Shown here: positions 3,301-59,600 of the stretch, piece by piece
How the letters are laid out: each line of letters begins with the position of its first letter
Numbering within the stretch: position 1 is the stretch's first letter
Position numbers and translations under genes: made by a program
DNA from: Pagrus major
Lineage: Eukaryota; Chordata; Actinopteri; Spariformes; Sparidae
Reading direction: 5' to 3'
Assembly (NCBI RefSeq): GCF_040436345.1
Contig: NC_133216.1
Location: forward strand, 17,770,110 to 17,834,109
Length of the DNA stretch: 64,000 bases
Notes under the pieces: model-generated
Databases searched by the model: none
The model's input: only the letters and a program-made list of their open reading frames with translations
Told to the model about the DNA's origin: nothing

Positions 3301-6195
3301 CAAGGGGATTTGGAGTGTGTGTAGTCTTCTTTCTCCTCTGAAAGTGCCTCAGTCGTTTACTTAGACGCTTTATTAGCAAGTGTCAGAAAGCTTTGATACT
3401 CTATTAAATCTTATTCTCTGTCTTTGTTCAAATCCGTATTAAGCCCTGAAAGCAACATCTAGTTTCAGCTAGTTATGATCCTGTGCTTTGGTGTTTTTTT
3501 ATATCATAGGTGTGATCAATATCCCAGCTGTAGCGCTGGGGATGTTTTCTGGAGGTTTACTGATGAAGAGGCTGAAGCTGAACATCATGGGAGCAGCCAG
3601 GTTTGCCTTTGGCACGTCTCTGATCGGTTACATCCTGTCACTGTTCTTCTTCACGATGAGCTGCGAGAACGCCAGGGTAGCCGGGGTGACACTTTCATAC
3701 AACAGGTGAGTCATAGATAATCACAAGGTGTTGTCAGATTATATTTAAATTCCGAATTCAGCAGAACAGAGTGCAATTAATGATCCAACGGACAGACATT
3801 AAATGCACCTCACGGGTTTCTACTTCTGGAATTGGTATGTTTAAGTCCATCTGGTTCGAATAAAACAAGTAAATGCTACTCAGCTTTCTGATTGCTTCAG
3901 TGTGTGACAAAAGGGACAATGTGGACTAGTATCTAGGCAGAACTGGCACAGAATGGGCGTAGGTTTCCATGGGGGCCACACATGAAAGAGCAGTATGAGA
4001 ACAGCTAACAGAACAAGCAGCAACATGCAAACCGCTGTTTGTAACACCGAGGCAACCAGCAGGTGATCACAAGCTTAAACCCAGCCAGAAATAACATTAC
4101 AGACCAACAAAAAGTCATCCCCCGTGTGTGCCCGATGCACTGCTGAGTCTGAAAACTGAGCTTCAATTGAAGTGACACTGCTGACAAAACAGATGAAAAG
4201 CAGTCAGATGGGTGCAAAGTGCTAATTAACCTGCAGTGAATGTGCTAAAACTGGCACACACAATCAAAACACAAGCCCTGCTTGTGGTAAATACACATTT
4301 TTCCATTAATTAATACTCATTAACTCTGTCCACCCTGGCGCCAAACATATTTAAAGATATAATATGTAACATTTCTGCATTGAAATGTCTAAAAATGACT
4401 AGCCCTTTGTTATCTATTCTGTGGAGTTGTGTACTTACGTTATCCCAAGTGTTTTCAGCAATTATATACTGTGGTTTTTAAACGCATGATGTGTAATTTC
4501 TGCCGCTAGACAAAAAACAAAAGAAATGCGTGAGTGTTGTGCAGGAAGGACCAGTCGTAGCAGGGGGCATAGCTGCTGCAGTTACTCTCCTCTACTGGCT
4601 GGCTCTGGAGGAGAGAGTTTGCTGCAGAGCCTGACTTTCTGGAGGAATAACCATCCAAAGTCACGTGGGATTCAGCTCTGGTCCGCAGCTGTCCACAGGA
4701 GGAAAGCTCAGCGATTGCCTTTTCAACTTTAGGGATTAAAAGTGGATTTACCTTCACTCCTGTTCATCAACCTGACTTTTCCTGATTCTCGCTAGTTTAC
4801 GGGTAATGTGTGGTAATCTGGCTGTTTGGGGCAAGTAAAAACTCACGCGAGTAATGTGAATTAACACAAACGATCCTGCATTTAAACTTGCTTTGCTGGT
4901 GGTGAACAAACCATTAAAAACCTATCTGACATGACTCACGCACAAATGTTAACAGATAATGTAACGTTTTAAAATTTTTATACACGCTTAGTCTCAGTCG
5001 CTGACTTAAGCGGGATTTATGGTTCTGCGTCAGGTCGACGGCGTACCTCCGCCGTAGCTACGCCGTCGACGCAGACCGCTACGCCGAACATCTGCGTCAC
5101 TTGACGCACGCCTCCCAAAAATCCTAACTACGCGTCGAAACGGCGCAGACAGCAGGGACATGCGACACGGACCTCGAGGGCTGTGATTGGTCCGCGTTAC
5201 ATCATTTCCGGGTCGCAGCGTTCAAAGGACGTACATACCACCTCCTCACACGTCTTCTCCTTCGTTTGGTATTTAACATTTGCACTAGAAGCATTTGTTC
5301 TTCAATATCGATCAGCTCCAGCTCCAAAAGTATCCTCTCTCGCTCAGTCGCCATTGTTCAATGTACTGTTTACCAGAGACCAGGCATGTTCACTCCCCGC
5401 TTCTGGCGTAACCGGAAAGTAAATACTCCAGGTACGAATTCATGCGGTTTCGTTACTCAGCGCCCCCTAGCGTTGTGGCGGTGAATTACCACGCGATGCA
5501 TAGACACCGCCGCACTACTATAAATGAAAAATCACGGCGATCATGTTCGCCGACGCCTAGGCGCACAATCGACGCAGAACCATAAATCCCGCTTTAGTCC
5601 TTCACTCTCTGACTCTATCTCAGAAGTTACAGTGACTGGCGACCAAATGAAATGTACTTTTACCTTGAGTAAACTGAGTGGATTTCTCTGGTTTTGAATA
5701 TTGTTGGAAACAAGTACACAACACAACGAAACACTGCAATACAAAGGTCTAGTACTTTTTTAAACTTTAATGCAGAATTCATACAGTATTCAACATTTTA
5801 TCGTATATCTTTGTATAGAGGTAATATAACTAATTATCTAATTGCCTCTCATTTGTGCCTCGTCTTCTTTCCAGCGTAGATACCGTATCTTACGATAAAC
5901 ACTCGCTGCTCGCAGCCTGCAACCAGGACTGTTCCTGTTTAGCAAGCGACTGGGACCCCGTCTGTGGCGAGAACGACGTCACATATGTTTCTCCCTGTCT
6001 CGCTGGCTGCACCGGTTCTACTGGCTCAGGAAAAAACACAGTAAGTTGTGCAGCAATAAAAAATGTTACACATGGAAATTAATGCTACATTCAGCTTCAT
6101 GAACTGATAAAATTGTGAATACCTCTGTGTGTTGCAGACGTGTGTATGAGTGTTTGTGTATAGTATTTACAGTGCACTGTATGTATTCCTGCATC

Positions 6196-6230
<35 letters not shown>

Positions 6231-9200
6231 CTATGTCCTGGCATACATGGTCACGTGTGTGCGACTGTGTGTGTGTGTGCATGTCTCTCCAGGTCTTCTC
6301 TAACTGTAGCTGTGTCGGTGTGGCCGGTAACTTTACGGCCAGTACAGGTCAGTGCCCTCACACGGACGACTGTGACAGGATGTTCCCGTACTTCCTGGCT
6401 CTCTCTGTCATCACTTCCTTTATCATCTCCCTCGGGGGGACACCAGGCTACATGTTTCTCATCAGGTCAGTATTAAATTTAAAAGTATCTTTTATGAAAA
6501 AAAGGACTTTGAAGTAACTGAATTATCTTTGCTCACACTGCTGCAAAGGGTCAGGGTCAGCTTTAATGCAATAATGCCCGTTATTCATATGTTGTTATTC
6601 TTCCCCTCGACATACTAAATAATTTAACATTTTATTTGCTGATGCAGCTTTAATGTGTGCATATATGATTTGGACCCTTTGAAGCTGTGTTAGCTGGTGC
6701 TGATTTTAGAGGCTCTATCTCAGTCTGCAAATGTTACATATTCAGCTTAAAAGGTGCACGTATGTAGTTTTGGGGAAGAATTGTTTTAACCGGAAGAGAA
6801 ATATGTTGTCCTTGTTTAGCAATTGTTATGCCTAAACAAACTAAATAAACAAAGTCTCTTTGTTTTGATGACTGAATACACAAACTGACCTTAAAGGACA
6901 ACACAATTTCACACTGTTTTACTTTTTTTTGTATGTGGCGGACCCTGCAGCCTTTCCAGCCTCAAACAGTGTTCTGGGAACCTTATTTTCCTCTGAGAAC
7001 AGCTTGTTTATTCAGATAGGGAAAAAAATAATATTTTTGATATAGTATTATTACCTCATTAAGGTTGTAAATATTACAATTCTGAGTTTGAATTTCTTCT
7101 CAAACTACATAGTGCACCTTTAATTTTGTTAGGAGTTGACGCCTGTCCTCACAGCTAAAATTACCAGCGCCCTCAGGAGCATATTGTAGTTGTCAGCTAC
7201 TGTTAGGATATGTGCCCTCTCTACAATATTACCGAGTTAACGAGACATAAGTTTCCACTTTGCAGCTGGTAACTCAGCACTCTCCCTGACCTCATTTGTG
7301 AGTATTAGATCAGAGTTTGGCCTTCAAGGCTTGAAGTGATTAAATAATTGCCTATGTCCTAGTAACCAGTACTGTCATATCAAGGATTTAAACCTCCAAA
7401 ATCATATGACTGGGAAAAAGGTTTGTTTGACAGAGCCACTGTTTGTACTTTGACAGACACAAAGACACAGTCATTGCCAATAAAAATAAGTCAGCTATAA
7501 ATGGCCAAAATCATTGTTTCTGACTGCTTTGAACTGTAAGGGAGCTAAATATAAAAACATCCCGTGATTCCTGGAAGTTAGCAGTTCCGCAAAAATGGAT
7601 TAAAAGTAAATAAATAGAAAATGTTTTCCATTCACAGTAACTGAATCATAGCAACAAATTATATAAAAACTATCACTGAATTTGCACGTCGGCGAAGAAC
7701 AAAGCCCGACCGATATATCTATTTGCTGATATTATCGACCAATATTTGCCTATCATAGATACATCTGTATCAGTGTAAAGGTTGTGCCAATATGAAAATA
7801 ATAATTATAAAGCAGAAAAAGATGATTGGGACAAGTGTTACCAATTTTGAGAGATCACAGCAAATAATGTGTGTACGTTGGCTGATATATCGAAATCTTT
7901 TACTCCCTAATGTCGGTATCGGCCCAAGCAATCGAGTATCAGTCAGGCTCTACTGAAGAACTCAATAGCCACTGCAAACACTGCTGCACATATGAGTCAT
8001 ATTAAAAAAGCAAGCATTCAGTGTTTTTAGCAGCAGGTGTTTTGTGCAAAATCTGATGATTGTCAAATGTTTTAATCATGAAGCTGTGTTGAGCTGCTGC
8101 AGAAAATGTCCCTCAAAGTGAATCAGTGGTGTTGTGTTATGAATGACAATTAATGATGGTCAGGATTGAAAGAGTGCACACCCCCTTCATTAATTAGCTA
8201 TAATAACTGGTCCCTCTGACACAGGAGAAATGGGTCAGCGCTGTGTCTCTCCCACTCATTTTTCTCAAGAAGATTGGTTGGTCTCCTGTAATTGCATCAG
8301 CCTACAGTATGTGTATTAGTTGTATGGTAGTCAGAACTTATGCTTCAAAAGACTTGAAATATGGATAACCAACAAAAGTAATGGAGGGACATTTTAGCTA
8401 ACTGGCTATTAAGTTACACTGAATTGAACTGCATTCATGTCTTCAAAATAACCACTATCAAATAGAAGGGTGATATTAGTAAGTGGAAATCCAATAATTC
8501 ATGTGACTCATTATTTGGAGCAGCTCTTTCTGGCTTATTAGCCCAATCAGCTCAAGGTTAACCTCACTGGCTGAAGCTGCAAATGCAATTCAAGTCCTCT
8601 TGAGTTAAACAGCTCCTGACAGATGAATAAGTAGAGAATGCAGTCATTAGCTAGAGGCTGTAAGGGGCCGTCTACTTAATACAGGCGGTCCTTGTAGAGC
8701 ATGCATAGTGGAGTTTTTCTTGCCAGCTCCTGCAATCCTGTTTGATGGGCAGGTGGACTCGTGCAATGTTTGACAGAAAATAACTGAAAAAAATGACATA
8801 ATCTTGATAAAAAATACAAATATTTTATGATTTCACCATAGCTATTACAGTGGAATACATGCAGTATACATATAGCCCCCAAACCATGTATTATGAACAT
8901 TATATAGCTTCTTCTGCATGACAGCTCCCTCTGCTGGCTGACACTCTGCTTAACACAACCATGCCTTTTACTGGTGAGACCCTCCATAGAGAAAAGATTA
9001 CATACTTCACCTCCCTTATCCTCTGCGTTGTTCTCCCTAAATCTCTTTCTATATATCTGTTTGTGTTTCTAGGTTTGAATGAGGGAATGTAGAGCAATTA
9101 AACCTACACACGAGTGTGCACACACAAAAACACATACACATACATACAAGACCTCCTAAAGCCATATCAGCTGATCCTGTTGGAATGCACTGGCCTCACT

Positions 9201-10971
9201 GGAATGAAATTGGTTAACTCGCTGTGTCTCTATGTCTCCTTGTACTGTCTATGTTGTATCATAAGGAGGCCATGGGTTATAATTGTCTTTAGACAGTGAG
9301 AGCATGCATTGTTGAGGCAGAGAAATGCCCATAGGTAGAAGTATCGTGTTTGGTCTCATCATTTCCCACCAAAACATGTTATATGTGTCCATAACTTTTA
9401 GCAAACATGTTTGCTGTTTTCCTATCTCATGAAATGTGTGAAAAGTCATTTTTTATGTGATGGAACAGGCTTTGGTAGCATTATTTGTGTGTATTGGTTT
9501 GTCTGAACATGGGATGACAACTTATATTTTTTAAGAGCTTCCCTTTTATTTAGAGAAAGAAACTTGAGTTCACTGACCTAGTTTCTGTTTTGTACTGGAG
9601 ACATGGCTGACATTTTTAAACCATTTCCCAAAATATGCATTTCTTCTTCATGCAGATGCATCAAACCACAGCTGAAATCTTTGGCCTTGGGTTTCCATGC
9701 TCTAGCAACACGTACACTTGGTAAGTCTCCCTCAAAAAAGAGCAAAATCTATGTCTCCAAGGTTCCATGTTCCCAAGATCCTATGTTCCCAGGGTCCTAA
9801 GTTACCAGAGTCTTATGAACCTAAGGTCCTATGTTCCCAAGGTTTTCTAGGTTCCCTTATGACCATGCCTCGAAAGGTTAGAGCTTTTTTGGCTGCACAA
9901 GTGGAACCTGCACAATATTAAGTAGGCGGTTTTGATGTTGTGGCTGAGCGGTGTATGTTCCCAGGGCCTTATCTTACCAGGTCCCTATGTTCCCAAGGTT
10001 CCAAGTTCCTGGGTCCTATGTCCCAGAGTCCCATGTTCCCAGGGTACTAACTTCCCATGGTCCTTTTTTCCTAGTGTAGGTTCCCAAGGGCCTATGTTCC
10101 CAAGGTCCTAAGCTCTCAGGGTCCTAGGTTCCCAAGAGCCGATGTTCTCAAGATCCTCGGTTCCCAAGCGTCTATGCTCCCAGGATCCTAGGTTCCCTGG
10201 TTCAATCATTTGTTTACACATATTAAAGGTCCCATTTGTAAGAAAAGTTGACTTTTGAGTCTCATTCCCAACTCATCAATTACTGGGGTAGACAGGACCT
10301 TGGGAACATAGGAAGGACTCCCTTCAAAACATAGATCCTCGATCAAGCACTTAGATAGAAACTGTCCTGTCGCTTGAACTACCAGATACACTCCAAAATG
10401 CATGTGCTTGCCAATTATTCAGTCTTTTAACCTCATTTGACTTTGGTCCTACAGCGGGGATCCCTGCACCCATCTACTTTGGAGCAATCATTGACACAAC
10501 ATGTCTAAAATGGGGTCAGAAGAGGTGTGGAGGCATAGGAGCCTGTCGAATCTACAACACCACTGCATACAGGTAGTACTCACATGACACTCAGAGTATT
10601 GAGAAAGATTCAGTTTTCTGACATGGTTGGGTCACATTTTCATTCTCACGTCTCATCTAATGTTTAGTTGAAGGCACCTAATCTTTACCTAATTATATTT
10701 TAGGTAGCTAATTATATTTTTTTTACTTCTCAGGATAGCGTACCTAGGTCTGACTCTGAGCCTGCGGACTATCTCCTTCATCATTTGCATCCCGGGCTTC
10801 ATTCTGCTCAGTCGACAGCTGAAGTCGGAGGAAAGAAACGGCATCCATGGTGCTCTGGCCAACGGTGGCACAGAACTGGAGGCACTCAGGAAGGAAGAGT
10901 TTGTGATCTCTAACTCTGACCAGTCACAGCAAACCTCAGACAACAGCACAGACAGGGAGACACGGCTGTGA
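329..10971 (+). CDS. slco1c1: Organic anion transporter, SLCO1 group (slco1c1-like), 3' eight exons
   Basis: This is the C-terminal part (455 aa) of a plasma-membrane OATP carrier; relatives move thyroid hormones, bile salts and steroid conjugates. Coding exons are 329-577, 1718-1882, 3510-3705, 5875-6040, 6293-6465, 9656-9720, 10455-10572 and 10734-10971. All introns are GT-AG and the phases agree throughout. Exon 329-577 carries the OATP signature [13 protein letters not shown]. Exons 5875-6040 and 6293-6465 encode the Cys-rich Kazal-like extracellular loop (CNQDCSC, DPVCGEN, CLAGC, NCSCVG) followed by a transmembrane segment. NFT and NTT glycosylation sequons are present. The protein ends in ETRL. 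The first exons and start codon lie outside the window. Segments such as [11 protein letters not shown] and NIPAVALG resemble vertebrate SLCO1C1 most closely. Fish have several SLCO1 paralogues, so the family is secure but the exact paralogue is inferred. Confidence 0.9.
845..1225 (+). repeat. Dispersed repeat, copy 1
   Basis: This is a copy of the repeat also seen at 20735-20962 and, inverted, at 23662-24015. Shared words include ACTCACTCATAGATACCAGC, AACACCCT, AGACCCATCCTCCATC and TTTTTGTGTAATC-type ends. It lies in an slco intron. The class (SINE-like or non-autonomous) is not resolved. Confidence 0.7.
5009..5593. mobile_element. PIF/Harbinger-like MITE
   Basis: This is a 585-bp element with perfect 23-bp terminal inverted repeats (5009-5031 and 5571-5593, beginning AGCGGGATTTATGGTTCTGC). 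It is flanked by a TTA target-site duplication (5006-5008 and 5594-5596). The TTA/TAA duplication is characteristic of PIF/Harbinger transposons. The subterminal part is CpG-rich and partly palindromic (around 5034-5070). It encodes no transposase, so it is non-autonomous. It lies in an slco intron. Confidence 0.88.
6195..6230 (+). repeat. (TA)n(GT)n microsatellite
   Basis: TA run to 6210 followed by GT repeats. Further GT-rich sequence continues to about 6280 in the short slco intron 6041-6292, ending close to the acceptor at 6292. Confidence 0.9.
6747..7123 (+). mobile_element. Inverted-repeat element, TTAAAGGTGCAC family, copy 1
   Basis: It begins TTAAAAGGTGCAC and ends ACATAGTGCACCTTTAA, so the termini are inverted repeats. 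Its interior (GGCGGACCCTGCAGCC, CAAACAGTGTTCTGG) matches copies 2 and 3 in reverse orientation. It lies in an slco intron. It looks like a non-autonomous DNA element; the superfamily is not assigned. Confidence 0.8.
7702..7955. repeat. Dispersed repeat with ACCGATATATC ends
   Basis: About 250 bp bounded by GCCCGACCGATATATC on the left and GAGTATCAGTCAGGCTCTA on the right. The ends are imperfect inverted repeats, and GATATATCG recurs inside. It resembles an old non-autonomous element and lies in an slco intron. Confidence 0.55.
9757..10205 (+). repeat. Degenerate minisatellite (unit like CCTATGTTCCCAAGGT)
   Basis: About 20 imperfect units of roughly 16-20 bases rich in TTCCCA and GGTCCTA, interrupted by about 100 bases of other sequence (about 9850-9950). 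It lies in the slco intron just after the 65-base exon 9656-9720. Confidence 0.85.
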
Positions 10972-12725
10972 CAGATCCAGCAGAACTGAAACTCCTTGTC
11001 TCCCTCACACAAACACAAACACACACACACAGACGGGCACACCACAGATGAACAAATACCAACCCACATACAGCCACACTATGTACAGCGTGATACTGTA
11101 CAAACGCACACACACAAATGAGATTTGCAGGGAATCACATGTTGTATCCGATCATCTCATAAAAGCATAAATTCTATATTTGTACTACTGGACCTGTGAA
11201 CGCTTTGTGAATTTGACAGAAATTTGATATAACTGAGATATTTCTTGAATGTACATGCTGTTTCTTTTCCTTATAAAGAAAATATAACAATATTTCCGGT
11301 TTAAAGGTGGCACAAGAGATTAGATGGGAAATGCGACTTGTACAGACTACTAGAAAAACATTATAATTCTGAAAACCAGCACTTATAAAGCTGCCGCTTT
11401 AGATTTTTTTCTTTCTGATAAGTTTTTCTTCCTGACATCACTGTTCCTGAACAGAAGAGGAGAAGTGGCCTTACAAAACCGGCGGCTCTAAATTTTAAAC
11501 AAAAAACACAATAATTAGGATCATTAGGCCTTCAAAGAGACCGGAAGTAAAGATTTTCTTTTTTAGAATTTTAAACAGAAAAGAGAAACGGGATGTAGTG
11601 GAAATATGTGTTTGAACATGTATTTCAGTGCCTATTTGAGGGCTTGGTGGTTGTTGACATATGTGCCTCATTCACTCAACAGTTACCTCTAAATCATGTA
11701 TGTCTCATCAATTTTGTAACATTTTGAATAGAATGCTATTTCATCTTACTTTTAAATATCAGACTGAATGTAAGTCCTAAGTCATTTAGAAAAATATTTC
11801 ATTTCTGAAAACTTTAGTCTTTTACTTTAAGCCCAAAGTCAGGTCTGATTGTACCGTAGTTTGTGTTCTGTGCTTTCTGGACGTGAACTTGTTCCACTGG
11901 TATTCATACTCACTAAAAATTATATTTTAGTGAGATTTAATTACCGGTTTGTTTCGTGGAGGCTGCTCCAATTTCAATATGGATGATGTCCAAAAGGGGG
12001 CAGTACACAATTCCTGTAGTTTCAACCAGCACCATCCACACTGAATTTTAGGTATTGAAGAGAGAATATTGTTTTAAATACATACGACGCACTACACTTT
12101 GTTGTGACGCTGATGATTAGGATCGGAGTGAATATGCTCAGAATTTGTGAATTTCTGATGTGTATGAGCTCTGCCTCCACATCTCATACCACTGCTACAC
12201 AGGAAGTGTAAGGTTATGTTGAGGTTTTTTTGTGTCTTTTTGTACGTGCATTAACTCAAACATCATGTTCTACTCTCAGGTCTTTTATTCTGAAACTCAG
12301 AACACATTTGTTTGAAATCTGTAAAAGTAATGCCTCGAAGTAAAAAAAAAAAATTGACTGGCTACTATATCTCAAGACAATAGTTTAAAAAAATATAATA
12401 CTTTTGTCTTTGTAAGTGTATAGCGTATTATTATTTTGTAAGGCCTCATTGCCCAAATGGATATGAACCATGTTGTCAATTTGCAGTATGTGGTGGCTGT
12501 ATCGTCTTTTGAATTCAGGTTCAGTTTCAGACACAGGTGAAGTACAGACTCAGAGGAAAGCAGCGAGCGGTGTAGAGGAAGGATGTCATTATCTCACTAA
12601 TGTAAGGCATTTACCTTGCATTGAAGAAATCAGAATGTAAATAATTTTCTTGGATTATTTTTGTAAAATTTCAAAGGATATCTTAAATGTAACACTAAAA
12701 ATAAAACTTTTAATATCCAATCAAA
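10972..12725 (+). other. slco1c1: slco 3' untranslated region
   Basis: About 1.7 kb of AT-rich sequence follows the TGA at 10969-10971 with no further coding similarity. It starts with a CA-rich stretch (about 11005-11120). It most likely ends just after the AATAAA at 12700-12705. The limits are inferred from the signal only. Confidence 0.6.
12700..12705 (+). terminator. slco polyadenylation signal
   Basis: This is a canonical AATAAA on the plus strand in an A-rich context. It lies 1.73 kb after the slco stop and about 90 bases before the oppositely oriented bcap29 signal. Confidence 0.6.
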
Positions 12726-17728: not shown

Positions 17729-19640
17729 TCATGTTCCCAGTTCATGCACTGACCCGTATGTGTTTTGGAGGTAATCTATTACAGCTGAGGTACTGGATAG
17801 AGAGTTGAACACTTTTCTCTCAGGCTGGGAGCTAACCCTCTCCAGCATGTAGATAAGATGTTGGTGGAGGCAGGTGAATGGAGTGCCTTGCTCTACAGCG
17901 ATGTCCACCCAGTCCCATATACACTCCAAAGGAGTATCCTCATAGCCGTCGAACATGGCAGGGTTAGCAAGCAACCCCCGCGCAGCCATCACACCTAATG
18001 AGCAAATCCAAAAAAACAGGAAATTAACAAAGCAATATTGTCATTTATGCATCTGTTATAAATCAATACATGTACTTGTTTAAGAGTCAAATGTGCAAGA
18101 ACCAAACCTACCATCCACCCCGGTAAGCTGGTGAGTGGACTCCACATCACGGAGGTACTTTATGTCCCCATTGGCAATGACAGGCACGGAGACGCTGTCT
18201 TTGATTGTCTTTATGGCATCAAAATGGACCGGCTGGTGACGTTCTTCTGAGGTACGGCCATGGACTGTTATCCACGCCACACCAGCTGCTTCAGCCTTCT
18301 GGCAAAGATCTACTGTCCGCCTCAGGTCCTTGTGAATTCTGTAGGTAAAGTGAATTTCTTTCATGATTATTATCATCAGGTACTGACCCTCATTTCAACA
18401 CAGGATGTCATATTAAATGAATTCTGATGCATGCAAAATGTATTTTTACCAGGTACAGTATAATGTATGACCCAAACAACACTGGCATTGATATTTGGAG
18501 GTCTTGCTCTAGTAAAATGTTAAGGTTTCTTTTTACCTTATTTTGATGGATGCTGTGTAGTTTGGATTGTCCACTTGGTTTCTGACAAGTCTGACCATGT
18601 CTTTCACAAGTTCAGGCTTGTTGATGAGGCATGCACCATACCCAGCTGACATAGCCCACCTGAAATCACAACAACAAGGATTTGTGAGCATATTCAAGGA
18701 GCACAACGTTTTATAGATTTTTCTCTAATAATCCATGACAATCAAGCTTTATTAGCATTTAAAATTTCCATTACAAATGAACAAGTCAAACTGTAAGCTT
18801 TTGATCCTACAATCAAATTGTGAAATAAATAACAGAGTAATAAAATGTGCTTGGAGGCCAAAATGTATCAGGGTCCATTGTTAAGTAGTTGCACCTTTGG
18901 GGACAGCCACAGTTGAGGTCAACTCCATCTGAGAAAGGTGCAACCACACAGGCTGCATCAGCCAGAGTCTGGGCATCATGGGCTGCAAACTGCACTATCA
19001 GGGGCCGGTCATCTGAGAGGGAAAAGGAAAAGCAATCAATCACGATCGAGCTTCAAATTAACAACACATTCATCATATGGCAAGACTTGACATATTTGTG
19101 TAAAGATACTGTGCATTAGAAGTGGTGGTGGTGCAGTGGACAACAGGTGACATGCATGCAATGTAGCATACTCACGCTCATTAGTTGTGAATTCACTGTC
19201 TCTGGCTTTGACAGATCGCATGAAGTCAGAGGCAACTATCATTGGTGTGAAGCAGATATCACAGTTGTATTTCCTCACCAAGGACCTAAATGCAAGCCTA
19301 TGTGGAAAACAGACTTCATTGACTACAGTGCCCGAGAGACATACATGAAAAGGTAGTTGTACCTGCTGCAGTACGTCTAATATTCACTTCAAATGAGCAG
19401 AGTACTGGATGAAACACTTGACAACTAAATGCTAAACGCCATATGCATTAAGGTTCAGAGTTTTTTTCTTCTTGAATTTCACTTGAGGTCCAGTACTGCA
19501 AAAATAAACAATGCAATAGCTACCATTATAAAAGCTTATTCGACTTACTTTGAATACCGAACCATTGGGGCACAAATCTTCAGGACCTTTCCCTTTTCAA
19601 ACATGTCCATGATGCTGGTGTTACCATTAGAAGTCTTCAT
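17729..19640 (-). CDS. dus4l: tRNA-dihydrouridine synthase 4-like
   Basis: This flavoenzyme reduces uridine to dihydrouridine in the tRNA D-loop, using FMN and NADPH. Coding exons in transcript order are 19640-19549, 19297-19176, 19012-18895, 18659-18537, 18338-18112 and 17994-17729. They total 948 nt, or 315 aa; human DUS4L is about 317. The TIM-barrel motifs appear in order: CAPMVRYSKLAFR near the N-terminus, KARDSEFTTNE, DLNCGCPQR with the catalytic-type Cys near residue 108, VHGRTSEERHQP, VIANGDI and GVMAARGLLANP. The C-terminal helical part starts about YEDTPLECIWDWVDIA. The ATG at 19640-19638 precedes MKTSNGN. All introns are GT-AG. A second acceptor 12 bases into exon 2 (exon would begin at 19285) would delete LAFR in frame. 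The transcript runs toward bcap29 on the same strand. Confidence 0.96.
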
Positions 19641-20467
19641 TCTGCTCAAGCAGCACTGTTAGCCGGCTAGCATAACAAGCTAACGGGCGCAGTATCCAAG
19701 AGCAGGGTTCCGTCTAAGGATGGGTTCTGTCGGCTGACATCTATCTCATTGTTTCACAGACGAGAACAAAACTGGATATGTGCCGACAAATCCCACACAG
19801 CCACACAAAGACACACAGATATAGCTGTGTTTACTTCGGAACAACATTGAAACTACGACGCCTCAGTCCACCATGCGGGCAGGAAGTGTGGGCGTGTGTT
19901 TGTGACCTCTGAACCCATACGTCATACAGCGCAAAGTGTGTTTTTATTTGTTTATTTATTTTTATTTTTATTTTTAATATCATAAATGTCCATTCTCCAA
20001 TGTATTTAGCTTAGGCTGTACACGGTAATGTATTTTTTTTGTTTTAAAATAGATGTTCACGGTTCTACGTCACGCCAATTCATGCAATGCTGCGTTCAGG
20101 TTCTGTTGGGGAAAGGTATTTCTCAATCTTTCAAGTCACTAGAGCACACAATATCATTCAATAAACGTCATCCTTTGGTATTGAGGTACGGAACAATCAA
20201 TACAATCAATATCAGTGTCCTCAAAAGGGGCTTTGTGCGTTTATTGTAAACAGTGACTATGTTAAACAATTTGTTTTTACATTAAGAGCAGCAATGGCAT
20301 TAGTCTTCAGTCTTCATTGTGCAGGTAACTTGACATGATAATTGTAAAATATGTAAGCAACATATTAATAAAAGACATGATGGGGAATACAAAATAAATC
20401 TATCTCTTTCGATTACTGTCTCTCTGTGGATTACAATTATTACAACTGTCTGATTTACAAGACACTT
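19641..20467. other. dus4l upstream region and spacer
   Basis: This holds the dus4l promoter side, with several CpGs around 19680-19900 and no obvious TATA box. It is followed by T-rich spacer (a pure A/T run near 19945-19980). No exon is recognised. It ends where the inverted rflnb copy begins. Confidence 0.45.
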
Positions 20468-20582
20468 TGACTTGCTCACATGTTCAGGCCAGCTGAAGAA
20501 AGTGGGTCACTTCAGTGCTGAACTTTGAAGTACTGGCTCCTTATGTGTTGACTGTGGGACCAGTTTTTGTTTTGTATTGCAG

Positions 20583-20677
20583 GTTCCAGTTTTGCCCACT
20601 GGCTCTTTTCAGCAGCTACAGCCATTGTCCTTTGGGGAAGGCATAGCACTCGATCCATTACCGGCGACGGAAATAAG
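20583..20677 (+). pseudogene. Extra copy of rflnb exon 2 on the opposite strand
   Basis: This 95-base copy corresponds to rflnb exon 2 (24140-24046 on the minus strand) and keeps the acceptor (TTGCAG) and donor (GTGGGT). Its frame is open and includes LSFGEGIALDPLPATEIR. By eye it differs at two positions: 20603 (silent) and 20668, which changes Lys to Thr. No matching first or last rflnb exon is seen beside it, so it is most likely a non-functional fragment. It could still be spliced as a cryptic exon if this strand were transcribed. Confidence 0.85.
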
Positions 20678-20734
20678 GTGGGTTGACATTAGACCTGCTG
20701 AACGAGTGATGATATGTATGAAAAACTAGAATGG

Positions 20735-20962
20735 CACTCAGTAGAGCGTCTACCTCTGCCAAGACCCAACAGTCCCCTTTTGTACTCACTCATAGATACC
20801 AGCTACCTAAATATGCCTGATTTTTTTAAAGCTCTATACATTAATCCCTGAGAAAATCTCAAAGGAACACCCTATCTCACAAATGTTAATGAAAGAGAAA
20901 TAATTCCTGGATTTGTAACTTCATTTGGATCCAGACCAAAAGTAAATGGGGGGGAGGTAATA
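20735..20962 (+). repeat. Dispersed repeat, copy 2 (internally deleted)
   Basis: This copy lies inside arm 1 of the inverted duplication. It lacks about 120 bases present in the rflnb intron copy. It was probably carried along by the duplication rather than inserted independently. Confidence 0.7.
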
Positions 20963-21030
20963 AAAAAAAATGGCACACTGTGCTGGCTGTGGTATTTTTG
21001 TTTTAATATGTATCAAGACGTCCAACAAAC

Positions 21031-22004
21031 CAACAGACCTTATATTCTAAAGGGACAGCAGGCCTACAAGAAAATCACAGGCATGATTGAACCAAGTTGT
21101 GAAAAGATCTCCATCAGTGCAGGGCTAAAGTACCAAAAGGACAAGCTCAAGCTGTCAGATGAGTTTTGTGTAGTGGAAAGACAAAAAGTGACGAGATGGT
21201 ACAAGAGTTTTCCAAATACCTACTGATCCTCAGCTCTCACCAGGTCAGAACTGCGAATGTTGGAGGCACCTTCTGAGGAAACACCTATGGCACAGAAATA
21301 CTGAACTAATGGGATAAGAATTGATGCTGCAGTTTTTTTTCCCCCACACCCTAAAGCCAATCAGTTGAATAGACTGATCATGGGATCACAGAGAGGGATT
21401 ATGAGCTAGATGTAACATTAACTTCTTCAGAAAAGCCAAAAGTTCAGAAGAGGCTTTCTGAGGTTTGTCACCATAATCATTTACACTGACAATAAACAGA
21501 CTTTGATATTGGCTTGGTTTTACTTTACTTCAATTATCCCTGATTTCCAGTGTTACCATTCTTTATAAATCCAAAATTAAAATCTATAATGTTAAAAATG
21601 TATCTTGGAGCACAGAATCAACTCTGCTCCAAATGAACCCAAGTTCCCTTTAGTACTTTGACTCTCTGGCCACAGGAGGGCACTGAAGTAACACAGTTCT
21701 AGTCTTTATAAGACAATTCACCCTCGGGCATACTATTATTTTACTACCTGAAAGGATCAGTAACACATCCATCTATCCGGACTGTTTTACTGCGATTTGC
21801 TGATATTTAAATATATTAGCTGCACAGTGGGCTTTAGGTATGTGGCACTCAAAGCATAAAACACATTTTAAAACCAAGCCAGGAGCTTCTTCTTTGTGCA
21901 GGTATACAAATTAATGAAACATTTATGAATAATTACCTCAGTCTGTTGTCATCTTTCAAAAAGCACAAGGAGTGACTCATAAAATACACAACTGTTGAAC
22001 TAAT
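21031..22004. other. Spacer between the duplicated arm and the rflnb 3' end
   Basis: This spacer shows no recognisable exon. A 72-codon ORF at 21008-21226 starts inside the duplicated arm and looks fortuitous. Confidence 0.4.
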
Positions 22005-23117
22005 GAACACTTTATTTTAAACTGGCACTGAGTAAGTGACTAATATCAAAAAGAAGCATCAACACTTACATCAATAAGGCACAAAAGGGCATCATGAAAA
22101 TATCCCTTGCCGCGACTGTGGAGAGACCCGTTAATCAGCTGATAAAAATCTAAAACTTCAACAGAATAAATACAATTTCACTCCAATGCAAGCCAAAGAA
22201 AGTGATAGCAGTGGAATGCAGCTTGTTATTTTCACTATAAGCCAGTGAGTGATATCAAAAATTACTCCCCACACACAAACACACACACACACACACTCAC
22301 GATCCATCTATGCTACTTATCAGTTTGTTTAAGCTTACACATGTTCACTCAATCTACCAACATTTACAAGGCACATCATGAGTGGCAGCCATAAACAGCG
22401 GCCGGAGAGAAGGCTTAGACCGTGCTAACATTGTGCAGAAATACACAATACCCTGTGAAGAAACGAAACATGTGTTAAGTGTTTTCACCCCATCCTCTAT
22501 ACAGTGTGGATAAGTTAGTGATTTCTTAGCATGCACCACATTTAATTGCCTTTCATCTCCTTTACACAAGAGTCGCACACACACTTCTAAAAGCACTCTC
22601 CTTCAGAATTACAAACAACTTCTCTGAACTGATTCTGGCCTCAAATTCAAAACCAGTCTCGCGGCATACTTGGCCAACTTGAGAAGAGTGACTTTGCTGA
22701 GGGCGGATGAGTCTTCTCTTCATCTCTGTCCATATGAATCAATTCTACAGCCAATAAAAACAAATCAAATATGAGCTCTGGAAACCAATAAGCTGCAAAG
22801 TGAAGCGTTTAATGAAATATCCATTCCTGAGACGGATAGATCATCCACTGGCAGCAGGGATATAAACATATAAGACATAAGATATGGACTGAATCGATAT
22901 TTCGCCCTCTTTGTCCATGTCTTGTCATCTCTGATATCTGTAACATCGCAGCACAGACGCTTCCTGTCCACAGCTTGGGAAGAGCACTTAAAAAAACGAT
23001 AACGGGCTACACAAGTGTAAAAAGACAACACAGCAGGTCAATGGCAGCCAGCCTCGGGGGAGATACAGTATAGGGGCAATGGGAATAACCACCCCTATGT
23101 GTCCCCAACTCCCACCC
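22005..23117 (-). other. rflnb: rflnb 3' untranslated region
   Basis: About 1.1 kb follows the rflnb stop (23120-23118). A minus-strand AATAAA at 22016-22011 is a plausible end. A (CA)n tract lies near 22265-22297. The end is inferred. Confidence 0.5.
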
Positions 23118-24832
23118 TCACTGAGGTAGCTCTCTGCGGCCAGCCGCCTCCAGCTCCACGCTGGAGAGGAAGCGCCTTGATAGTCGGTGGCAATCGTAGC
23201 TCAGCTCTGTGGTGAAGACGGCGCTGGTTTTCTTGGGGTAGATGATGGTGGTGCTCTTGAAGTGCTGCGGCCGATGGCGAGGCTGGAACTCCAGCTGTGT
23301 CTTGTAGTGGCGCCAGGTGCTGTGGGGCACGGCCATTATGGTCTGCATGCAGTGTTCAAGGCCCTGGCCCGATGGCTGCAGGGCCACGCCCTGGATGAAG
23401 TGGCGGTCCGAGTCATAGTGCACAGATGAGGTGTATCTGTGGAGGAGGGAGAGTGTTTAATGGTTTTATTGGTGCTAAATTACTGATTACCAATTAAAAA
23501 GGTGCACTATGTGGTAGAGAAAGGTCTTCACCGACTGATTTTTATGCCTTAACAATCCATAGTCTTGTTTGCTTCTCAACACACGCAGTTGTTGGACGTC
23601 TTGATACATATTAAAGCAAAAATACCACAGCCAGCATGGTGTACCATTTTTTCTTATTACCTCTGCTTAGGAGGTTATGTTTTCACCCATGTCTGTAGGT
23701 TTGTAAGCATGATTACACAAAAACTACCAAATGGATTTCCACAAAACTTAGATGGAGGATGGGTCTTGGCCCAGGATGGACCCCATTTACTTTTGGTCTG
23801 GATCCAAATGAAGTAACAAATCCAGGAATTATTTCTCTCTTTCTTTAACATTTGTGAGATAGGGTGTTTCTTTGAGTTATTTCTCAGGGATTAATGCATA
23901 GATCTTTAAAAAAAAAAAAAACAGGCGTATTTAGGTAGCTGGTATCTATGAGCGAGTACAAAAGGGGACTGTTGGGTCTTGGCAGAGGTAGACGCTCTAC
24001 TGAGTGCCATTCTAGTTTTTTAAAGCATGTCTAATGCCAACCCACCTTATTTCCTTCGCCGGTAATGGATCGAGTGCTATGCCTTCCCCAAAGGACAATG
24101 GCTGTAGCTGCTGAAAAGACCCAGTGGGCAAAACTGGAACCTGCAATACAAAAAAACAAAAATTGGCCCCACAGTCAACACATAAGGAGCCAATACTTCA
24201 AAGTTCAGCACTGAAGTGACCCACTTTCTTCAGCTGGGCCTGAACATGCCAGCAAAGTCAACGAACTTTAACAAACATTTGGTTTGTTTTACTCAAAACT
24301 GGCTCATGTGGAAGTCAGCAAAGAAAACGATGGGCACGGTGCGACTGGCAGAGAGCTAGCAATTTATTTCAGAGCTCACTTCCTGTCTATTCAAACGCAG
24401 GGATATAACATCTACTCATGCATTTGTGGAAACCATCAGGCTTTTCATGCGTGGAGGACTAAATTCCTCGCAGTGTGCCAAGTCCTCCATATCAAATTGC
24501 AAGTAATGGAATGTTCTGGCATTTCCAATAAGAAATGTTGAGCTGCAATTCGTGGTCGTCTACCTTTCTCCACAGGGAGTTCATATTGCTTCAATAACAT
24601 ACATGCAGGAAGTAGCGTTAGTGTTACCTACCAGGGAGCCCCGTCCCTCGTCTTCAGACACCGGGCTCACGCCCCCGGCTTTCTCCGCGCACGCAGGCAG
24701 CAGCCAGGCGCTGGGGCTCGGGCTCGGCGGCAAGCCGGAGTCCGGGCTGTCAAGTCCTCTATCAGCCCTGCAGCTCATCACATCCAGCGGGTCTCCTTCA
24801 CAAACATTTGGCAAGTTCAACCTGCCAACCAT
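23118..24832 (-). CDS. rflnb: Refilin B (filamin-binding regulator, FAM101 family)
   Basis: Refilins bind filamin and promote perinuclear actin bundling; refilin B is linked to skeletal and chondrocyte development. Coding exons in transcript order are 24832-24632, 24140-24046 and 23436-23118. They total 615 nt, or 204 aa; the human protein is slightly longer. The N-terminus MVGRLNLP and the segment LDSPDSGLPPSPSPS are family hallmarks. Exon 2 encodes PLSFGEGIALDPLPAKEIR. Exon 3 encodes YTSSVHYDSDRHFI, FQPRHRPQHFKSTTIIYPKK and the C-terminal LRRFLSSVELEAAG-type motif (here SRRFLSSVELEAAG). The start is the ATG before VGRLNLP. Intron 2 contains a dispersed repeat (23662-24015). Exon 2 and its flanks are duplicated in inverted orientation at 20468-21030. 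rflnb lies in tandem downstream of vps53, as on human 17p13.3. Confidence 0.95.
23583..24260 (-). repeat. Inverted duplication, arm 2 (within rflnb)
   Basis: This is the rflnb-resident partner of 20468-21030. It spans part of intron 2, exon 2 and part of intron 1. The arms face each other across about 2.5 kb that includes rflnb exon 3 and its 3' untranslated region. Confidence 0.9.
23662..24015 (-). repeat. Dispersed repeat, copy 3
   Basis: This is the fuller copy, in rflnb intron 2 and inverted relative to copies 1 and 2. It runs from GAGGTTATGTTTTCACCC at one end to the TGGCAGAGGTAGACGCTCTA side at the other. Confidence 0.7.
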
Positions 24833-26391: not shown

Positions 26392-53648
<27,257 letters not shown>

Positions 53649-54870: not shown

Positions 54871-56439
54871 CAGGTTTAACAGGAGATTATTTATGGGACT
54901 GAAAATCATTAGTGTAGAAAGAAGAAAAAGGAGAAGGAGAACATGACATCAAGACATGAGGTGATCTGGTCTAGCAGATCCTCATTGTTCCTCTGATGGC
55001 TCATTTTTATAAATGGAAGCAAAGACATGTAATTGCGGGAGCCTGGAAATGGCTGAATTTATGACTCATAGGACAAAGTTGCAAATGCATCTGATTGAAC
55101 TGAACTGCTAGAATTCATTAAGCGTCGCGTTCTGACATTTCTAGAGGATGTGGGAATGTACTGAAATGTAAAAAGAGGACGAGAGCGGAACACAGAAGAA
55201 GAGAAAGAAAAGCAATGAGAGAAAGAGGGCAGGAAGAGCACAGAGACGGCTGTAGCGTATTGTGTTGGTGTGCGGCAGAGCAGCTGTCAGATGGCTGATA
55301 TAAATCTCTCCCACAGAGGAAACACATCATGTTGCACAACTCACCAGGGGTCACAACTAACACTGCAGACAAGCAGCGTGTGTGTGTTTGTGTTGGTGCA
55401 TATGCATACATAGTGTGATGGGGTGCTGCAATACATACATGAAATATGAAAATGGGATGTAGATTCGAGTCATGGTTTGGTTAGGATGATAATGTGTATG
55501 ATGGGCCTAATGGAAGCTACAGAAGAAAAAGAAAAAATGGCTGCATAATCCAGCTGTGTAGACATCTGCTTACATGAGAAAAATGACTAATAGAACAACA
55601 TAAAAATGCATAATTACAGTATCAAAGGAATAGTTTGACATTTTGGGTTAAATGAGAAGATCTTTGCTCGCACATCTGTTTGCTCAAAGGTGTCATTTAC
55701 ACTGGGGACACTGGGAGCATGTCCCCACCACTTTTCCAAATGGCCAGTTTTGTCCCCGTCTTTTTTAGAAAGCATAATTTGTTTAAAATATATTTTAAAA
55801 AATCTTGCACCAAATGAACAAATGAGAATGCTTTGCTCACCATCGGCACCTGCAGTTGAAACTGGCTTCTGTTGATTCTGGTGCGAAATTATGACAACAT
55901 TATAACTTAAGATGTGGGCTTTAATAGGCCTACACTTTAAACTAAGGCTAAGCAACAGAATACAACATGTGCAGGAAAACTGCTATTGTTCATTGTCTAA
56001 TGGATGTGCAGATGCAGATACAATAAATCAGAATGCAATACATTAGATGGACTGAACCTGCATGATGTTGCAGCTGTAGATGTAATGTGGATGACAGTTA
56101 CTTACGCAGTCAGTGCCCCTCTGATGTGCCATTATGGATTGTCTTTTTTTTTTTTTTTTTTACCGCCATGAATATAATCTCTGACCTCACTGCCTAAAAT
56201 CATGTGTATTAAAGACCATTTAAACATGTTTTTCATTTGAGCCGCTCTGTCCCCACCAATTTTCAGCACAAAGTGATGACTTGGTGTGTGTTCAATGTGA
56301 AGCTGGAGACAGCAGCCGGTTAGCTTAGTAGAAAGACAGGAACCAGGCTAACGTTTTCCCTCCTGTTTGTCATCTTTATGCGAAGCTAGCAAGCAAAATA
56401 GCCCCATTGAGTTCCTTTTTGTCTTATATATTTTTACCA

Positions 56440-56652
56440 TATTAATGAGGTAATAATACAAACTGAGAAATTATTTTTTCCCTATCCGAATAAACAAGCT
56501 GTTCTCAGAAGAAAACAAGGTCCCCAGAACACTGTTTGAAGCTAGAAAGGTGGCAGGGTCCGCCACATATAAACTCAGTAAAACAGTATGAAATTGTGTT
56601 GTTTATTTTGTTTGTTTAGGCTCCTTTGAGAACTACATAGTGATCCTTTACG
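56440..56652 (-). mobile_element. Inverted-repeat element, same family, truncated copy 3
   Basis: This shares AACAAGCTGTTCTCAGA, GCAGGGTCCGCC and AAACAGTATGAAATTGTGTT with copy 2 and keeps one terminus (ACTACATAGTGATCCTTTA). The other terminus is not seen. Confidence 0.75.
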
Positions 56653-59600
56653 ATTTATGCATCGATCCATAAAGCCAGAAGAAACTACAATTTTTCATGC
56701 ACTAGTCAATTTTGAGATTTTGGGCCATTTTTCTTCCGTGACGCATTTTTCCAGATTAAGGGAACGAAAACACTTCAAATACTAATTTAGGTTTTACTTG
56801 AATTTATATTTCTGTTCTGAAATTGTAAGCAAATGAGTGCTTACTTAATTGCCTCATTTGCAATTTGAAACAAAACTTCAGAAAACTGGTAATACAAAAA
56901 AATCAAGCAAGGGAAGTTGATTTCCATTACTTAAAATTCACTTGTCATATCTTGCCACAAGCAGAATTTTGTTGTTGTAGCTGGTTGCGGTGGAGCTGTT
57001 TTTTTACTTTATATACTGTTTAAAGATGCATTTTATTTTCATGGATTACTTTTACGTAAACCATAATTTGCAAAGTAACAAGTGACTGAAGCTGTCAAAT
57101 GAATGTAGTGGAGTAAAAAGCAACATGTTTCTCTTTGAATTGTGGTGGAGTAGAAGTATAAAGAAGCAGAGAGTTTCTACCACTGGTATTAACACATCCA
57201 AAGTCAGATTGGGGAAAAAGCTGGGTAGACAGAATGACTAGATAACCACAGTCATGATAGCTCTTAATTAGCCAGACGCTTTCTGATAGCTTTTGGAAAG
57301 CCATTTGCTGCTAATGCCTGAGCTGACTATGCTGAACTGTTGTCACTAACAGCTTTCTGCCTTTCTTGTTGGCTGGGCAGCGTTCACGAAATAAGAGGCT
57401 TCAGGTCAAGCAAAAGCAAAGCGGTTCAGCAAGGCGATGCATCCTGGAGTCTGTGGAGAGGAAAAGAAAGGGAGATGAGCATGTCAGCAGGAAGTCATCT
57501 CAAGGTTTTTGGGCTTATTTGCAGCGATGGACGTGATGTTCGTTCAGGGTCGCGAAGAGGTCGAAATTTAGAGCACTTATGAGAAGAGTTTCAACGTCTG
57601 GAGGAGAAAGAGACCCCGAATATAAAGCAACATGTCAAGTTTGAGCTACAAATCTCATTTCCTGAATCAGAACATGAGCTTTCAGTGGTCACCTGATGAA
57701 AATATCCAACAGTTGTATGAAATCTTAGCAGGGGACCGACTTGAGAGCATTTGTTCCAGGTTGTGTTGAAAGCCTTCCTGCCCAAAATCAGCTGCTTTGA
57801 GCTTAATTTGCAACTGGAAAAGCACTGAAGATTTGCAAAGTGGATGCAGCAGTTGGTGGCTTGGAGTTTGGTCCAGGGGTTTAACTCCTCCTGGAAGGCA
57901 AGGAGGCAACGCAAGATGTTCTGCTTGACGAGATTTCCAAAGATTGTTGCATCAGGAAAACAGCAGTTTCTTGTGTATTGAATTTTTGTCACATTTAAAA
58001 AAACACAGCAAAAGCATGCTGACAACATGTGCAGTTAATGTGGGATTAAAATTCAGCTGATTCGTTGATTCTCTGGCAGCTGAAACAAGATGCACAATCT
58101 GTGCCTTCAAGTGAGCCCCTCGGCTTCCTGAATCATCCTAACTAATGAAGACTAAAACTGTTTCCTAAGATTAAAGACTTGATATGTAGGAATTCTGCAC
58201 TCACATGTCAAAAATGACCAGTTAAGTTGTGAGTTTACGCCTGTTGCTACTTCAGGGATAGGGAAGTTGGCGAACGAGACCAACTTTTGACAAGACATTG
58301 CCTCATCTGTGAACATTTGTGCCCGAGTCACGTCAGATAGATTTTCATCAGCAGTCGTGGTTGTTTGATAGTCTATTCACCACCACTGAAGTGAGTTTGA
58401 CTGCAGGATAATTTGTGTTTATCTGCGTCACTCATGCAGTGTTTATTTGTCCCAAACAGCCAGATTGCTTCATTGTATAAGATAACATTAGCGAGTAACA
58501 GCACACAACAAGGGTGTCTCTGTAATGTCTTCATGAAGTAAAGAACATTTCCCCTCCAGCTCCAGTCAGCAGTCAACATTACAGTATGTAATAGCACCGT
58601 GGAGGTCAGCTCCGCGGATCGTTGCTGCAGTCAGGTTGATAAACAGGAGTGAAGACAAATTCAACAAAAGTTAAAAAGTCACGTCTGAGCTCTCCTCCTC
58701 ACTAATATACAAAAACGTTTAAATTCCTGTATTTTAGCAAAAACAATTTGCAAATGCAAATCATATTACTTGTTTTTCTAATCTGATTACGTCATTCTGA
58801 TTAAATGTTATTTGTTACTACCCAACCCTAATTGTGTGCTGACAAAGACAGCAAGGCAACATCTTTCTGAAGTGAGCCTCAGCCATGTTCTGTTTTTGCG
58901 ATCTGTCCAAACCCGGTCAGACCTCCAAAGTACTTTGATTGGTCAAATCCCAACAGCTCTCTGAATGTTGTGTCACAGAAGTGTACAGCGTTTGGATGCA
59001 TTCTGGCTCACAGCATGTATTCTACAAAGAAGCAAACTGAGTTGCAAATGCCAAAGTTTGGGGAATTAGGGGAGGAAAAAAATAAAAATCAGTTAATTAG
59101 ACACCAAAATAATTGAGAACGTATTGGCTTAGATCTCTGACTGGCTCAGGATTTATACCCCTGCGACACTGAAGCAACATTGCATGAATAAAAAATATGT
59201 ATTGCCTTCCATGCCTCAAGGAACAACCTGGTGATGGTGAAGGACATGAAGCATGCCATCTGCACGGACATTTAAGAGTGATTCAAAGTCATAAACATGC
59301 ACCTCGGCACTCTTTTTTTTATTCTTTGCAATGGATTTCTTTGGCCCACCACTTGCGGCAGACTTCTGCTGAGAGTCAGATTCAACTTTCAGGATCTAAG
59401 CAGCTTGTCTGGCCTCTTCAGGATGATCACAGTGCATGAAGAAGTGGAAAACAGCACGAAACAAACAATCCACTGCCACTATCACTGTTAGGTGGAGAGC
59501 TGCTGTGGCAGAGAGAGAAACTCACAAGGCAGAGATTCAAGGCTGGCAGAACGAGACGCTTTGCACTCCAGCAGTCTTCGAGCAGAATCCAGACAGCTTT

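Follow-up and report, generated by a model that had tools for sequence, protein, structure and literature searches.

Evidence for an inverted segmental duplication spanning exon 2 of a putative rflnb gene in Pagrus major

A segment of the minus-strand rflnb gene that holds exon 2 and parts of both flanking introns is matched by a second, inverted segment that lies in intergenic DNA beyond the 3' end of the gene. The best overall explanation, to which we assign a probability of roughly 0.8, is that a piece of rflnb was copied once at the DNA level, in inverted orientation, and that the copy has since been drifting as non-functional sequence. All coordinates are those of the window, by which we mean the whole 64 kb stretch of Pagrus major DNA that was analysed. 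The features on which the argument turns are as follows.

24632..24832, minus strand: coding exon 1 of rflnb, from the ATG (gene model)
24046..24140, minus strand: exon 2 of rflnb, 95 bp, starting in phase 0 and ending two bases into a codon (gene model; PF15068 match of the joined exons)
23118..23436, minus strand: exon 3 of rflnb, coding part and stop (gene model)
22011..22016, minus strand: probable rflnb poly(A) signal AATAAA, its function taken from the sequence motif
23589..24261, minus strand: source arm within rflnb, 673 bp (gapped alignment)
20467..21028, plus strand: inverted copy arm, 562 bp, with part of rflnb intron 1, exon 2, part of intron 2 and a truncated dispersed element (gapped alignment to 24261-23589)
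20583..20677, plus strand: copy of rflnb exon 2, with an open frame and with AG acceptor and GT donor retained (alignment and gene model)
23656..24006, minus strand: dispersed element in the source arm, the span being that of its matches to a second copy and not its true edges

The three-exon model encodes a protein of 204 residues, and each of its two introns begins with a GT donor and ends with an AG acceptor. The joined exons match PF15068 (FAM101, the refilin family) at 284.1 bits (cut-off 27), with nearly the whole profile covered, and by its predicted protein the source gene is a member of that family. Its assignment to refilin B rather than refilin A is putative and is taken over from the initial annotation; the Vps53 neighbourhood fits it, in that frames matching Vps53 in Pfam neighbour rflnb on the same strand, and the human RFLNB neighbourhood at 17p13.3 is one that we take to include Vps53 as well. 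No solved structure matched the protein at E-values up to 1, and no Rfam family reached its cut-off between 19000 and 25500. Between 20400 and 23130 the minus strand holds a single AATAAA, at 22016-22011, which lies ~1 kb short of the copy arm; ATTAAA variants are also found at 22813, 22546 and 21007, the last of these inside the copy arm.

The initial annotation, made from the letters of the DNA, had described an inverted duplication of exon 2, and gapped alignment bears this out with arm edges that differ from those first given by no more than 6 bases. Over 544 aligned sites the arms differ by 25 substitutions (15 transitions and 10 transversions; K2P 0.048) and nine gaps, the largest of which are 93 bp and 22 bp absent from the copy arm and 18 bp absent from the gene arm. 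The main block of the pair was found at E = 1e-177 when 20000-24600 was compared by BLAST with the 64 kb window, and a repeat search reported the pair as seven ungapped blocks (I1 to I7) of 91-98% complementarity. Self-comparison, which had been suggested for the region from 20 to 24.5 kb, recovered the arms as the strongest of the pairs retained for the whole window. This comparison was run with low-complexity masking and gave 18 rows at E = 1e-10; after self rows, mirror rows and rows shorter than 80 bases (including a 75-base block of the arm pair itself) had been dropped, seven non-self matches were retained, and the arm pair scored highest among them.

In the source arm, exon 2 is preceded by the end of intron 1 and followed by ~40 bp of intron 2, the dispersed element and a further ~65 bp of that intron. 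The two arms lie in opposite orientation and share exon 2 as well as intron DNA to either side of the element, which is what marks an inverted segmental duplication. A match restricted to the dispersed repeat was considered and is rejected, since exon 2 and additional intron DNA are common to both arms. To judge from the alignment, the exon 2 segment is a real and ordinary inverted segmental duplication. We found no mention of it among the titles and opening lines of abstracts listed for rflnb, refilin, inverted and exon duplication, and F8 int22h.

The copy of exon 2 is well preserved, as had been noted at the outset: frame, acceptor AG and donor (GTGGG) are kept, and only two of its 95 bp differ from 24140-24046, one being silent (GGG/GGC) and the other replacing lysine with threonine (AAG/ACG). 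It had been suggested that this closeness reflects a recent event or gene conversion, a suggestion that the distribution of differences does not support. The exon carries 2 differences in 95 sites and the rest of the arms 23 in 449 (Fisher p = 0.28, a comparison of low power at 95 bp). The longest run without substitution is 67 sites, a length equalled or exceeded in 69% of 20,000 simulations (P = 0.69), and the variance of substitution spacing (P = 0.48) is likewise compatible with a random spread. Because the exon's lower rate of difference is not significant and the substitutions are evenly spread, there is no sign of gene conversion or of selection, and nothing here calls for either. A possible objection to drift alone is that frame and splice sites have survived ~5% divergence; drift permits this over 95 bp, and selection would give the same outcome.

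A functional additional exon would be expected in the same orientation and within the transcript, but the copy lies on the strand opposite to its own gene and beyond the probable poly(A) signal, and its 95 bp do not make up a whole number of codons. Lysine, the residue in the gene, scores 1.5 bits higher under the family profile than the copy's threonine. The polarity of this difference is weak, and the lysine position may vary within the family: rat RefilinA is said, in PMC5087682, to carry only two lysines, K128 and K179, so that the exon 2 lysine is possibly not conserved in RefilinA.

The dispersed element gives some purchase on what happened to the arms after duplication. A second copy of it lies in pieces at 848-1287, near an OATP transporter frame, and carries a 22-base A-rich insertion; its main piece (972-1226) is 71% identical to the element. 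About 115 bp of the element are absent from the copy arm, and the 93 bp and 22 bp gaps probably represent a single loss. We assign this loss to the copy arm because the second element copy retains the missing stretch, the far end of which rests there on a weak piece (E = 0.006). The second copy supplies an outgroup base for 14 of the arm differences, and it sides with the gene arm at eight of them, with the copy arm at four and with neither at two, a weak count given the poor alignment at the ends; the split suggests that both arms have changed. The 18 bp without a gene-arm counterpart are at 20699-20716 in the copy arm, near the edge of the element.

The course of events that we favour is as follows. 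A DNA-level event, for instance template switching while DNA was being replicated or a break repaired, would have copied ~0.67 kb of rflnb once (exon 2, with the adjoining end of intron 1 and the first part of intron 2, which already carried an old dispersed element) and placed the copy in reverse in the intergenic stretch that follows the gene; the copy would then have drifted without function, gaining substitutions and losing ~115 bp. The arm inside rflnb is presumed to be the source because it alone lies in a complete three-exon gene. Past the arm edges we found no similarity beyond chance: out of 200 shuffles, 52 at one edge and 141 at the other scored as high with 300-bp flanks, and 54 and 156 with 1000-bp flanks. 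The stretches compared at the copy's two edges had no exact direct repeat of at least 6 bp in common. A processed retrocopy was also considered and is rejected as unlikely, since the copy includes parts of introns 1 and 2 and is without such a direct repeat. Neutral rates are commonly quoted as a few substitutions per site per billion years, at which a K2P of 0.048 would place the duplication, very roughly, ~5-12 million years ago; this is a soft figure.

Four other readings would give the arms a different standing, and we take them in order of how well they survive. The first, which we think improbable, is that the rflnb transcript at times continues past its poly(A) signal, so that the arms pair as a long double-stranded RNA enclosing exon 3, with A-to-I editing, retention or decay as the result. 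The initial annotation had raised such pairing, and one part of its claim stands: the arms can pair. Joined by a linker of 30 A, they are predicted to fold to -959 kcal/mol with 522 inter-arm pairs, where five shuffles of the copy arm gave -308 to -325 kcal/mol, and, given read-through, a single minus-strand transcript would span both. The same folding is, however, to be expected of any inverted duplication with such identity. The condition set on it, a read-through transcript, fares less well: because the copy arm is reached only ~1 kb past the probable poly(A) signal (22016-22011), double-stranded RNA would require a transcript that runs on at least that far, and the source arm is chiefly intronic and would be removed by splicing.

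The second reading, a shade less probable than RNA pairing, makes the arms a substrate for inversion, in which recombination between them flips the intervening segment and parts exon 3 from exons 1 and 2, comparable to gene-breaking inversions mediated by duplicons elsewhere. An exchange carried out in silico within the exon copies indeed transferred exon 3 to the plus strand, where it followed the copy of exon 2, and deprived exons 1 and 2 of it; an arm-to-arm inversion is conceivable and on this model would break rflnb. Against this, arms of ~0.6 kb and 95% identity are short for such recombination, the longest identical run between them is 67 bp, and the window shows the gene order intact. 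Pairing of the arms as a cruciform, also put forward initially, is implausible: they are separated by a spacer of 2.56 kb (21029-23588), and extrusion is improbable over such a distance. The broader proposition that the duplication regulates or recurrently breaks rflnb, either through long double-stranded RNA in read-through transcripts or by toggling the exon 3 segment, we regard as a long shot.

Third, the copy might serve as an exon of a non-coding or otherwise new plus-strand transcript, started for example backwards from a dus promoter region that we would guess to lie near 19.9 kb. The intact acceptor, donor and frame would suit this, as would the dus gene, which is on the minus strand with its most upstream recognised frame at 19036-19383. 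We nevertheless hold it to be very unlikely. No signal of conservation is seen in the exon copy (the 2/95 against 23/449 given above), and a Pfam scan of 11 of the 14 plus-strand frames of at least 80 aa between 6.1 and 25.1 kb found none at the curated cut-off, a scan to which non-coding and short exons would be invisible. Two of these frames gave weak matches that fell below cut-off and are not accepted, DUF7953 on 20852-21226 and DGF-1_4 on 10907-11170. A scan of 20400-21100 for bacterial promoters and terminators, meaningless in a vertebrate, returned chance numbers (2 against a mean of 1.8, and 1 against 0.7). To judge from these comparisons, the copy is most likely without function.

Least likely of all is an assembly artefact, through misplacement of a piece from the other haplotype or through a fold-back chimera, since the arms differ by 4.6% and nine gaps, which is above the usual difference between haplotypes, whereas a fold-back chimera would give near-identical arms; the window is also free of N bases.

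A drifting inverted duplication of this kind has ready parallels. Small dispersed inverted segmental duplications of genic DNA are a general class, and the rflnb case is like them in being a DNA-level copy of exon and intron, in opposite orientation, a few kb from its source and drifting uniformly; as far as can be seen, it differs only in the gene concerned. The int22h repeats of F8, one lying in the gene and the other outside it, resemble the rflnb arms in layout, and recombination would split the gene in either case; the rflnb arms differ in being ~0.6 kb long and 95% identical, in sharing no run of identical bases above 67, and in being known here from one sequence. F8 int22h and other inversions mediated by inverted repeats are taken up in PMC3211038 and PMC3961182. 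Among fishes, PMC11499932 describes four megabase-sized inversions in the Atlantic herring, three of which are flanked by inverted duplications 8-60 kb long whose cores are 95-99% identical. Those duplications, too, are inverted and lie in a fish genome, but the rflnb arms are 0.6 kb long and the gene order between them is intact.

As a drifting duplication only, the copy matters little beyond annotation, where its exon could be mistaken for part of a gene or could attract mis-mapped reads. Should the arms in truth pair in RNA or recombine, they would amount to a natural experiment, if a small one, on what an inverted duplicate does to the expression or integrity of the gene beside it.

Other repeats were seen in the window. 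A separate dispersed repeat family has at least four partial copies, at 6750-7121, 28962-29054, 52251-52612 and 56430-56602, with 77-87% identity in the pairs found. A weak inverted pair (4815-4970 and 58292-58466) is 69% identical over 176 columns, and a long CA/GT microsatellite, one of several within the window, occupies 35849-35948.
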